Below, in pieces: positions 10,047-28,562 of a stretch of 64,000 nt of DNA. The notes beneath the pieces were generated by a model, which did no database searches, was not told the DNA's origin, and saw only the letters and a program-made list of their open reading frames with translations. The stretch spans positions 310,001 to 374,000 of the forward strand of contig NZ_JARRIB010000001.1 of the NCBI RefSeq assembly GCF_041647995.1, written 5' to 3'. Position 1 is the first letter of the stretch. Each line of letters opens with the position of its first letter. Source of the stretch: Pyrococcus kukulkanii (GTDB lineage Archaea > Methanobacteriota_B > Thermococci > Thermococcales > Thermococcaceae). The position numbers were made by a program, and so were the translations under genes.

Positions 10047-10214
10047 TTTCTACGAGCTTTCTAAGCTCATGGCTTCCCACTCTACAATATCCAACTTCAG
10101 CGATCTCATGGAAAACAGCGCGAGGAATGTATACTTCAAATACCTCACAAACTTTTCAAATACTCCTCCAAGGCTAAGTCTGATTATAGCGGATGAATCC
10201 AAAACAAGCCCCAT
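10039..10214 (-). pseudogene. PIN-domain (DUF3368-like) toxin remnant
   Basis: On the minus strand MGLVLDSSAIIRLSLGGVFE, a typical PIN N-terminus with the first catalytic Asp, runs until about 10135. There a 1-nt loss shifts the frame, and the sequence continues as YIPRAVFHEIAEVG before a stop. The C-terminal acidic residues and nucleotide-binding strands of a normal PIN toxin (about 150-160 residues) are missing. It overlaps the 3' end of the UPF0175 gene, the usual antitoxin-toxin order, so the pair is a decayed toxin-antitoxin module. Confidence 0.65.
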
Positions 10215-10387
10215 TCTAAAAGCTCCTCCGCTAATTCATTCTCATCATACTCATAGGGATCAATTCCTCTCTTCAATAACTCCCCCAAGAATTCCTGATA
10301 TGAGACCCCAGCGATCTCAACCGCCCTTCCTATAGAAACTATCCCCCTCCTATGCATAAAGTAACCTAACAAGCTTTTCTGTTTCAT
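10184..10387 (-). CDS. UPF0175-family small protein (antitoxin-like)
   Basis: A 67-residue protein with the UPF0175 signature VSIGRAVEIAGVSYQEFLGE and LLKRGIDPYEYDE; these are helix-turn-helix-like proteins commonly paired with PIN (DUF3368) toxins in archaea. The start codon follows CTCTCAAAGG. The partner toxin downstream is frameshifted and truncated, leaving this as an orphan antitoxin. A short relic of the same gene start occurs at 12377-12418. Confidence 0.75.
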   Translation of the reverse strand: MKQKSLLGYFMHRRGIVSIGRAVEIAGVSYQEFLGELLKRGIDPYEYDENELAEELLEWGLFWIHPL

Positions 10388-10401
10388 CCTTTGAGAGGTA
10401 C

Positions 10402-10771
10402 ATTTTTCTTTCGAAAGCCTCGCCCTTTAGGGCGGGATGCAGGGATTGAGGGTTCAGCTCTTTTAGACCGAAAACCCTTTTATATTCCACCCTCGTAATA
10501 GGGCCCTGGAAGGGGCACTCCAAGTTCATCGTGTCCTCCCGTCATTGAGAGGATGACGCCGATAGGCGTCCTTTCAAGATCTCGGCGGTTGGAACTTTGG
10601 GGGTGGCCTCCCAGCGATAACCCCGAGCCCGCTCTGCGGTAGGGGTAATTTCAGGCCGGGCCCGCGGGCTGAACCTCATGGTGATGGGCCCGCAAACCGA
10701 TGAAAACCCTGAAGGGCAGGGTTATGGCGCCCAAGAGGAACCTCCACCCTTCAGGGCCAGGAGGAGGTCAG
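10402..10771 (+). mobile_element. IS200/IS605-derived element carrying a structured RNA candidate
   Basis: The left end TTTCGAAAGCCTCGCCCTTT with its GCCCTTTAGGGC hairpin and the right end CACCCTTCAGGGCCAGGAGG plus AGGTCAG match the other elements in the window. It is preceded by GGTAC. The 370-bp element has no transposase frame. Its interior is much richer in G+C than the flanks, and it starts with BRE/TATA-like sequence (GACCGAAAACCCTTTTATAT at 10476-10495). It separates the UPF0175 gene from a transporter fragment; the corresponding second copy near 12420-12441 lacks it. Confidence 0.7.
10510..10735 (+). ncRNA. GC-rich structured RNA candidate inside the IS-derived element
   Basis: A possible promoter (CCGAAA followed by CTTTTATATT) would initiate at about 10510-10516. 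Downstream, several helices can be drawn: CCAAGTTC with GAACTTTGG (10520-10527 / 10591-10599), the hairpin GACGCC-GATA-GGCGTC, CCGC-TCT-GCGG enclosed by ACCCC/GGGGT, and GCGGGC with GCCCGC around 10662-10693. High G+C in an AT-rich hyperthermophile is a hallmark of functional RNA. It does not show the RNase P or SRP RNA signatures I know. A relation to TnpB-associated (omega) RNA or to the HgcC-type Pyrococcus RNAs is possible but unproven. Confidence 0.5.
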
Positions 10772-10795
10772 AACAACCTCACTCATACATATGAG

Positions 10796-10944
10796 CTTTA
10801 ACTCTTCCCTTTATGTCCTTATCCCAAGAAGAAAAAGCGTCAATAAGAGCGCAACAATGAGGTAGGCAAGAGAATACTTGTGAAACTCTTTCACGCTTAT
10901 TCCCGAAAGCCTTATCACTATGGGGTTTGCGAACTCCCCAACCT
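10796..10944 (-). pseudogene. C-terminal fragment of an ion transporter (duplicate of the 12456 gene)
   Basis: This stretch is nearly identical to 12441-12589, the 3' end of the intact transporter gene. It encodes the same tail (IRLSGISVKEFHKYSLAYL then a hydrophobic end with GIRT). No start or upstream part of the gene is present. It is the relic of a segmental duplication, now separated from its neighbouring UPF0175 gene by the element at 10402-10771. Confidence 0.8.
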
Positions 10945-11167
10945 CCTCGGTTATCTTAACACCCTTTCCTCCAATAATACTCCTTCACACCATCCTCCCA
11001 TTCTTTAAAACCTCTCTAACACTATCCCCCACAGCCCTCCCCGGTAATAATTCATAAAAATGTGGTATTAACTCCTAATTCAAGACGGAGAAGACCAACT
11101 GCTATAAAAGAACTGACCAAGCACCTCCCTATAGGGGCCATTAGAAAATTAACTCTATTGAAAAAGG
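10945..11167. other. No intact gene; decayed sequence
   Basis: Between the transporter fragment and hicA I see no gene. Minus-strand readings such as VKEYYWRKG and VKITEEVGEFAN in different frames look like small broken coding remnants joined to the transporter fragment. No RNA signature was found. Confidence 0.3.
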
Positions 11168-11404
11168 TCATGGATCTTTGTATTTGTTCAAGAATTCTTC
11201 CTCACTAATTCCTGCCTGTCTCAGGATGCTTTTCAGCGTCCCAATGGCGACCTCCTCGTGGTCGGGAACAATGGCAGTCCTCTTTTCACCGTTTTCTCTT
11301 CTCAATTTTATGTGACTCCCTCTCCGCTTAACGACCTTAAACCCAAACTTCTTGACAAGAATTCTGACTATCTCCCTACCCGATAATAATGGAAGCTTCA
11401 TCAA
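11168..11404 (-). CDS. hicA: HicA-type mRNA interferase toxin
   Basis: A 78-residue double-stranded-RNA-binding-fold toxin of the HicA/YcfA family. The key motif is RRGSHIKLRR with the catalytic histidine H31, preceded by GREIVRILVKKFGF and followed by TAIVPDHEEVAIGTLKSILR. HicA cleaves mRNA; it is neutralised by HicB encoded immediately upstream, whose gene overlaps it by 29 nt. All expected parts are present, so the toxin should be functional. Confidence 0.9.
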   Translation of the reverse strand: MMKLPLLSGREIVRILVKKFGFKVVKRRGSHIKLRRENGEKRTAIVPDHEEVAIGTLKSILRQAGISEEEFLNKYKDP

Positions 11405-11612
11405 CCTTGACCTCCAAGTGCCGCTTCTGGAAGACCTTCTCCCTCAACTCTGGATAATCCTCCAAGTAAAGCTCTAGTGCCTCCAAGAGGTTAGCGTAAG
11501 CCTCATCCGCCGTCCTCCCCTGTGACGCAACGCCCGTGACTGGCTCCTGGGCAACAAACCACTCACCCTTCTCACCCTTCTCCCTCCACATGATTACTAT
11601 TGGGGCTTCCAT
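11376..11612 (-). CDS. hicB: HicB-type antitoxin
   Basis: A 78-residue partial RNase H-fold antitoxin: VIMWREKGEKGEWFVAQEPV, then GVASQGRTADEAYANLLEAL, the standard HicB pattern. No extra DNA-binding domain is visible after residue 70. A Shine-Dalgarno (GGGGTGGGAG) precedes the ATG and a TATA-like AAAACTTAATACC lies about 40 nt upstream. The antitoxin is first, the toxin second, with overlap. Confidence 0.88.
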   Translation of the reverse strand: MEAPIVIMWREKGEKGEWFVAQEPVTGVASQGRTADEAYANLLEALELYLEDYPELREKVFQKRHLEVKVDEASIIIG

Positions 11613-12376: not shown

Positions 12377-12418
12377 CTAGGACTTTTTGAGCCCTGCCTT
12401 CAAGCTTTTCTGGTTCAT
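12377..12418 (-). pseudogene. Relic of a UPF0175 gene start
   Basis: The sequence CTCTCAAAG-ATG-AACCAGAAAAGC matches the ribosome-binding site and first codons of the UPF0175 gene at 10387 (MKQKSL there, MNQKSL here), but the frame stops after 13 codons. It lies downstream of the transporter gene exactly as the intact copy lies downstream of the transporter fragment, so it marks the second copy of a duplicated segment. Confidence 0.55.
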
Positions 12419-12455
12419 TCTTTGAGAGATACTTTGGTATCTTTAACTCTTCCCT

Positions 12456-13574
12456 TTATGTCCTTATCCCAAGAAGAAAAAGCGTTAATAAGAGTGCAAC
12501 AAGAAGGTAAGCAAGGGAATACTTGTGAAACTCTTTCACGCTTATTCCCGAAAGCCTTATCGCGATAAGGTTCGCGAGAGAGCCAACCATACTTCCAGTT
12601 CCCCCGAGGTTAACCCCCAAGGAGAGGTAGAGCCAGTTCTTTGTCCAGGGCAACATAACCACGGTCGCAGGGACGTTGCTTATAATCTGACTTAGGATGA
12701 GAGAGTAAAGGAACGCGCCTGCTGAAGTTAGCTTGCCTATGTTTATCATTGAAGACAACTCGGAGAAGTTTGCGAAGATAAGTGCAAAGGTGGGGACGAG
12801 GGCCACATCAAAGGAAAGGAGAACATCCCTCTTAAAAATTAAATACACTAAAACGGTCAAGAGCAGGGAACATCTCGCCAAATCAACTCTCCCCATAACC
12901 ACGTTAAAAACGAGGAGAAAAGAGGAGAGTAGGAAAAGTTTAACATTAACCTCTACAGGGGGAACTTTAACCTCAATCCTCTTATCCTTGACCATTAGAG
13001 AGAACAGGAATAAAATCACGAGCCATAAAAAGACATAGGGTAGCATTCCCTTAATGAACCCAAGGAATGAAAGTGAATAGTGCTTCCATATTATCACGTT
13101 CTGCGGATTCCCTATTGGGGTTAAGGAAGAACCAACATTTGCGGCTATGGCAGAGAGGGCAACGGCCCTCGGAACGTTTATTCCCGCTATCCTACCTGTG
13201 ACAACAACTAAGGGCGTGAATATTAGGATTGCGGTGTCATTCATGATCAACGCCGAGGAAAATGCTATGATTGGTAGGAGGATCATCACTAACTTCCTTT
13301 CGGATCCCCTAGATAGTGCTATTAGCTTAATTGCAAGCCTAGTAAATATCCCAGAAAGCTCTAGACCCTTAGAGGTTATTATGAGGGCCGTTATGAGGGC
13401 GAGACTCTCCCAGTCAACTAAGTGGAGGCTCTTCCTGGGGTATCCCCTATCAAGTATAGTGAGAACTAGGTACATCACAATAAGAGTTGAAAGGAACCAC
13501 TCCCGCCTAATAACGTACGATATGCCTCCTAATTTCCTCCGTAAGTGGGTAGTCAGGGACAATTTTCTCGCCAT
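12456..13574 (-). CDS. ArsB/CitT-superfamily ion transporter
   Basis: A 372-residue membrane protein with about ten hydrophobic segments from the ion transporter superfamily that includes ArsB, NhaD and SLC13 carriers. Two pseudo-symmetric signature loops are visible: SLTPIGNPQNVIIW after the first half and SMVGSLANLIAIRL near the end. The cargo cannot be read from sequence. The first ATG makes a 68-nt overlap with the upstream gene; the first membrane segment begins about residue 24. A second copy of its last 150 bp lies at 10796. Confidence 0.82.
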   Translation of the reverse strand: MARKLSLTTHLRRKLGGISYVIRREWFLSTLIVMYLVLTILDRGYPRKSLHLVDWESLALITALIITSKGLELSGIFTRLAIKLIALSRGSERKLVMILLPIIAFSSALIMNDTAILIFTPLVVVTGRIAGINVPRAVALSAIAANVGSSLTPIGNPQNVIIWKHYSLSFLGFIKGMLPYVFLWLVILFLFSLMVKDKRIEVKVPPVEVNVKLFLLSSFLLVFNVVMGRVDLARCSLLLTVLVYLIFKRDVLLSFDVALVPTFALIFANFSELSSMINIGKLTSAGAFLYSLILSQIISNVPATVVMLPWTKNWLYLSLGVNLGGTGSMVGSLANLIAIRLSGISVKEFHKYSLAYLLVALLLTLFLLGIRT

Positions 13575-28278: not shown

Positions 28279-28400
28279 GGGCACCACCAAAGGTATCATT
28301 GGGGGAACTCTTTAACACATTTTTTATGAAGTTCAATTCACATTAGATTTTTAAAATTAAATAATGAAATTCACCATGAGTTAGGCGAGCCTAATCGGAG

Positions 28401-28562
28401 CTGACCTCCTCCCCTGAACGGGGGTTCCCATAGCTCCGCACGGTCGCCCGTGGTTCACCGAGCAGGTTGGCGTCATCGGGCACGGTTAGAGTGCCCTCAG
28501 GAGGAATAAAAAATTTAATATAGCGGGCTTTCCTCCCCGCCCTAAAGGGCGAGACTCCCAGC
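28401..28562 (-). mobile_element. IS200/IS605 remnant with tnpB 3' end
   Basis: The right end (GTTCAGGGGAGGAGGTCAG on the minus strand) and left-end hairpin (GCCCTTTAGGGCGGGGAGG) match the other elements. Between them the minus strand still reads DDANLLGEPRATVRSYGNP, which looks like the C-terminal tail typical of Thermococcales TnpB proteins. The remainder of tnpB and tnpA are deleted. An AT-rich stretch (TATATTAAATTTTTTATT) could serve as a promoter. The retained part corresponds to the region that produces the omega RNA in intact elements. Confidence 0.65.

Follow-up and report, generated by a model that had tools for sequence, protein, structure and literature searches.

TnpB binds an RNA from its own right end and takes the flanking DNA as a guide (PMC8612924). 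In Pyrococcus abyssi, Phok et al. (2011) described four promoter-driven noncoding RNAs related to the 3' ends of OrfB genes, sRkB, sRkC, sRk48 and sRk52; binding of L7Ae was shown for sRkB, sRkC and sRk52, and sRkB and sRkC were reported as P. abyssi-specific (PMC3124441). In T. kodakarensis, three HgcC RNAs arise inside transposase genes (PMC4247193). Both the guide RNAs of IS200/IS605 right ends and the MITEs of IS200/IS605 are known kinds. PATEs and MITEs of IS200/IS605 have palindromic ends, and we know of no RNA gene described in them.

We analyzed an element of 370 bases in a 64,000-nucleotide stretch of the Pyrococcus kukulkanii genome (the window). It lacks a protein gene and carries a promoter and a folded RNA (Table 1). 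A sequence-only reading had described here a BRE/TATA-like sequence, a G+C-rich block and IS200/IS605-type ends, and each of these was found at the positions given for it; the block has 57-69% G+C, compared with ~40-50% around it. A reading frame as the source of this composition was rejected, since no ORF of at least 60 aa lies within the element and many indels separate the copies. A DNA search of the same genome (2.05 Mb, 9 contigs) found 4 full copies of the element and several fragments, the other three full copies being 70-75% identical to the window copy. Full copies have their left end (LE) and right end (RE) in common, while the sequence outside them is unrelated except at orthologous sites.

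Table 1. Features of the element and its borders, in window coordinates.
Feature	Position	Strand	Observation or basis
Target/TAM tetranucleotide, GTAC in window copy	10398..10401	+	TTAC in most copies
Non-autonomous IS200/IS605 element, LE to RE, 3' ...GGTCAG	10402..10771	+	Empty sites of sister copies
Left end, containing hairpin CGCCC-TTTA-GGGCG (subterminal, 10421-10434)	10402..10440	+	Same LE in tnpB-bearing L053, L060
BRE/TATA promoter CCGAAAA-CCCTTTTATATT	10468..10486	+	Pattern in 30/35 family copies
5' RNA domain (model R2), ~120 nt	about 10496-10614/10617	+	Only in elements without tnpB
CCAAGTTC (10520-10527) / GAACTTTGG (10592-10600), copy-specific P1 extension	10520..10600	+	L001, L018 only
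Helix P4 GACGCC-GATA-GGCGTC	10555..10570	+	99.5% paired; 10 double-compensated sequences at closing pair
Scaffold of the omegaRNA (model R1); homology with tnpB 3' ends	10615..10771	+	Alignment A2, 6 tnpB 3' ends
Helix S1 ACCCC/GGGGT	10620..10646	+	98.9% paired over 37 sequences
Helix S3 GCGGGC/GCCCGC, K-turn-like CUGA...UGAUG internal loop (predicted)	10664..10693	+	98.4% paired
Right end, with subterminal hairpin; 3' terminus GGAGGAGGTCAG	10741..10771	+	Same RE in tnpB elements
Predicted guide AACAACCTCACTCATACATA: host DNA of the flank, as RNA 3' extension	10772..10791	+	Expected from TnpB biology

For sister copies in Thermococcus, we joined the two flanks and ran the joined sequences against 61 genomes of that genus. 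Uninterrupted empty sites were found for 5 sister copies, and at base level the junction reads ...TTAC followed directly by the flank. The element is therefore delimited as the base after TTAC through ...GGTCAG, and by analogy with the sister copies that have empty sites, its borders at 10402 and 10771 would be exact. Insertion in these 5 cases lies 3' of a short specific target, without target duplication and with a precise empty site. TTAC was present at 17 of the 24 copies with a readable site and was also kept in the empty sites. The subterminal hairpins of both ends are common to autonomous elements (L053, L060).

The window copy adjoins the remnant of a UPF0175 gene (10184-10387, minus strand). 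It sits at the start of this broken gene, and its neighbours include HicA toxin and HicB-like antitoxin genes (11168-11612, minus strand). A second copy of its right flank (10790-10970) lies ~1.6 kb downstream, at a permease-like gene's 3' end. We do not count this near-empty paralogue (12401-12588) as a clean empty counterpart of the window copy, since its junction shows a difference of ~17 nt. Among L001 (the window copy), L019 (G004) and L018/L024 (G007), orthologous insertions have flanks that are ~97% identical; within these insertions the right end is 98% identical and the 5' domain just ~42%. In G007, left and right flanks have been recombined between copies. The pattern suggests that copies have exchanged sequence, by gene conversion or by ectopic recombination.

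Judged by homology, the right half of the element is the omegaRNA (guide-RNA) scaffold of one Thermococcaceae TnpB clade. The 3' ends and right ends of this tnpB clade (L053, L058, L060, L063, L064 and L070) could be aligned throughout with 10615-10770, so that the scaffold is homologous to a tnpB 3' end, and the R1 covariance model matched tnpB 3' ends (at every locus tested for tnpB genes of this clade) and solo elements alike. The suggestion of an omega-like RNA with its own promoter in an IS200/IS605-derived element was borne out by this homology. In geometry, and only in geometry, the locus also has the layout of a guide: the 3' end falls at the RE boundary, the predicted guide coincides with the flank that directly follows TTAC in the empty sites of sister copies, and the TAM coincides with the insertion target.

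No two unrelated sites share a predicted guide (right flank), and for this reason we do not regard the RNA as domesticated, as the sequence-only reading had allowed. A host-domesticated regulator with a fixed target, either TldR-like or a riboregulator, would fit the orthologous insertions in G000 and G004. It is nevertheless very improbable, since the conserved guide and target of the TldR type are not seen, relatives carry empty alleles of many insertions, and internal parts have been swapped between orthologous copies.

Folding energy alone was modestly unusual (z of -2.4 for the plus strand and -1.8 for the minus strand, relative to shuffles), so the case for a structured RNA rests on comparison. 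We built an alignment of 37 sequences without using structure and scored on it a hand-written fold with one pseudoknot. Paired cells amounted to 95.6%, compared with 90.9 +/- 0.3 in shuffles, compensatory cells to 80, compared with 22 +/- 3.8, and the covariation score to 0.193, compared with 0.109 +/- 0.005, although shuffles overstate the significance, given the kinship of the copies, some of which stem from a single genome lineage. When the partners were slid, pairing fell to 35-56%; slid controls are free of the weakness from kinship, but they favour a fold drawn from the same sequences. The helices of the 5' domain (P1-P4) and of the scaffold (S1-S5 and the pseudoknot) are supported.

Covariation among copies, which had been proposed as a check, thus came out in favour of the RNA. 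The helices GACGCC/GGCGTC, ACCCC..GGGGT with CCGC-TCT-GCGG, and GCGGGC/GCCCGC, all called earlier from the window copy, proved to be conserved family-wide over the 37 sequences. A further helix, CCAAGTTC/GAACTTTGG, is present in the window copy as claimed, but it is limited to that copy and its G007 relative. Helix S3 shows double changes at 2 pairs. For the conserved 3' GGUC, pairing to an internal GACC/GGCC loop is predicted, and 98% of cells agree with it; an alternative pairing of 5' GGCCUC with 3' GAGGUC is possible.

The promoter pattern recurs in 30 of 35 copies, across genera and at a constant distance from the 5' domain, and transcription would start at about 10500-10506. A scan for bacterial-type promoters and terminators, which is not relevant to archaea, found nothing. 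Anatomy was alike in every genus examined: LE, BRE/TATA, 5' domain, scaffold and RE within about 400 bp. These data bear on the view that the element is a passive MITE, made up of the ends and a tnpB 3' remnant, with a structure that reflects a few active masters and the RE hairpin that TnpA needs. Several copies are indeed truncated, and the P. kukulkanii genome has no intact partner; even so, compensatory changes run throughout the RNA, including a 5' domain far from the ends, and the promoter has been kept at fixed spacing across genera. We consider a passive MITE unlikely.

Of 94 Thermococcaceae genomes, 51 have the 5' domain (R2), in about 200 copies altogether, and 81 give scaffold (R1) matches; 21 further genomes of the phylum gave no R2 match. 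None of 30 R2 loci examined had tnpB within ~1.5 kb on either side, and none of 10 tnpB loci had the 5' domain. Among the best 30 scaffold loci, 24 had the 5' domain but lacked tnpB, 4 had tnpB but lacked the 5' domain, one was a truncated solo copy and one lay at a contig end. Wherever R2 loci were examined, the scaffold is directly joined to the 5' domain, whose long-range helix P1 stops at the border between the two. Because of this fusion and the position of P1, we set aside the earlier alternative of an independent ncRNA hitchhiking on a MITE.

TnpB biology does not explain the 5' domain. The order of its hairpins looks similar to that of the zinc-finger coding region of tnpB, and an origin from that region, as the P0 hairpin of sRk52 would suggest by analogy, was considered and rejected: the full covariance model gave a best E of 0.66, and the pairwise score against the tnpB coding region was 11.7, compared with 10.9 (sd 0.9) in control segments, so that similarity is undetectable. 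Strong conservation of the domain, and its restriction to solo RNAs, would suit a decoy or regulator that binds TnpB without productive guiding and titrates the nuclease or its 5' RNA-processing activity, shielding non-autonomous copies or the host from cleavage. A published case in which a region of the TnpB mRNA inhibits cleavage (PMC10278001) points the same way. We nonetheless think such a role improbable, since the 3' terminus and the flank/TAM geometry for guiding, which a decoy does not need, are fully kept, although transposition alone would also preserve the RE.

Genomes with R2 more often carried the cognate TnpB clade (42 of 51, compared with 20 of 43 R2-negative genomes; Fisher p = 4e-4, uncorrected for phylogeny), and copy numbers of R2 and cognate TnpB were correlated (Spearman rho 0.62, with kinship ignored). 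The cognate TnpB was not found in nine R2-positive genomes, among them G004, with 6 R2 matches. This protein has OrfB_IS605 and Cas12f1-like TNB domains, and its sequence is related to those of TnpB/Cas12f structures. Its RuvC-III motif, NADLVGAFN, is only in part of the "derived" NADxN kind, with the terminal N changed to G, in the nomenclature of PMC10278001. By eye, the position of the usual RuvC-II glutamate reads VVGYPK, which leaves the catalytic state uncertain. In TnpB proteins of the clade such as L058, where that glutamate is apparently replaced, an acidic residue lies nearby in (V/N)EAFTS, and the active site may be rearranged.

The P. kukulkanii genome encodes a single cognate TnpB, which lacks the N-terminal residues 1-82, and a PF01797 search of this genome for a Y1 TnpA gave no match; we therefore make no claim of present mobility there. 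A TnpA-like reading frame was seen, by eye only, upstream of tnpB at L058. With its cognate TnpB truncated and no Y1 TnpA found, the system looks stranded in this genome, where it is probably dormant and its elements either relics or waiting for a partner.

Taken together, we believe that this is quite probably a miniature IS200/IS605 element with a promoter-driven omegaRNA gene that serves a TnpB supplied in trans and draws its guide from flanking DNA. The element lacks tnpA and tnpB and retains both ends, and it would carry a free-standing omegaRNA gene. Its own BRE/TATA promoter would yield a structured RNA of ~270-310 nt, the 3' part of which would be the scaffold recognised by one Thermococcaceae TnpB clade. 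The RNA would read past the right end into the flank, and the first ~16-20 nt of that flank would be the guide. TnpB from elsewhere in the cell, joined to this RNA, would cut the empty site (TTAC plus guide) left by excision of the element, or else a sister chromosome without the element, and recombinational repair would then restore the element copy. That the RNA is transcribed and bound by TnpB in trans, and that it leads to cleavage and keeps the element in place, is inferred. Expression of this RNA is plausible, given that promoter-driven solo RNAs of other OrfB clades in P. abyssi are transcribed from BRE/TATA promoters (PMC3124441).

We are evenly divided on a broader proposal, that Thermococcaceae harbor a distinct class of protein-free, "guide-only" transposons consisting of a promoter, an omegaRNA, a dedicated 5' domain and the ends, which would use TnpB in trans to be copied back into the site they occupied. 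If true, they would be RNA-level parasites of an RNA-guided nuclease, and the 5' domain would have a new role, such as heat stability, L7Ae binding, blocking of 5' trimming or recruitment of TnpB. The family supplies a natural set of putative solo guide RNAs, about 200 in number, that belong to one TnpB clade and come with a TAM, guides, a covarying scaffold and empty sites. With these, the model in which the nuclease keeps the transposon in place becomes testable for protein-free elements.

Compared with known systems, the element resembles the PATEs and MITEs of IS200/IS605 (in haloarchaea, for example) in being short and non-autonomous, and those have LE and RE only, whereas the present element is defined by an RNA gene. 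Like the sot RNAs (RF02656 and others), which are sense-overlapping transcripts at archaeal tnpB 3' ends, its RNA is tied to the end of tnpB, but the match was weak (15.2 bits against a cut-off of 88). It shares with the reRNA/omegaRNA of ISDra2-type TnpB a scaffold made of the tnpB 3' end and RE, a guide taken from the flank and a TAM equal to the insertion target; unlike that RNA, it has its own promoter, an extra conserved 5' domain and no tnpB in cis. None of the Rfam 15 families matched the element RNA above cut-off, and an RNA family absent from Rfam 15 is now defined. As far as open-access full text shows, a family-wide, promoter-driven, protein-free omegaRNA element with a conserved 5' domain is undescribed.

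The nearest precedents of the element's RNA are P. abyssi sRkB/sRk52 and HgcC. The sRk RNAs (L075-L078) differ in belonging to two other OrfB (TnpB) clades with other scaffolds, and P. abyssi has at most one weak match to R2. In L075-L078 the 5' hairpin corresponds to the hairpin encoding the tnpB zinc finger, with compensatory differences, and is joined by deletion to the 3' scaffold. We infer from their sequences that sRkB, sRkC, sRk48 and sRk52 are solo omegaRNAs of those two other clades. HgcC (RF00062) is, like the present RNA, a GC-rich Thermococcales RNA, and the HgcC copies read terminate, as this RNA does, in the right end GGGGAGGAGGTCAG; HgcC is shorter, with another internal structure. 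Identity with HgcC, a check that the sequence-only reading had named, was rejected at 14.9 bits against a cut-off of 50, and the HgcC model matched neither the solo elements nor the cognate tnpB elements of the family. The window holds an HgcC copy of its own (28388-28498, minus strand), whose flanks (about 28400-28560) include an IS605-like left hairpin, GTCTCGCCCTTTAGGGCGGGG, and the right end CCCCGTTCAGGGGAGGAGGTCAG; a second copy (L016), 3' of a tRNA gene, has the same right end. HgcC itself thus looks like a solo RNA borne by IS200/IS605, and the orphan Thermococcales ncRNAs, sRkB/C, sRk48/52 and HgcC, are tied to TnpB-type right ends.
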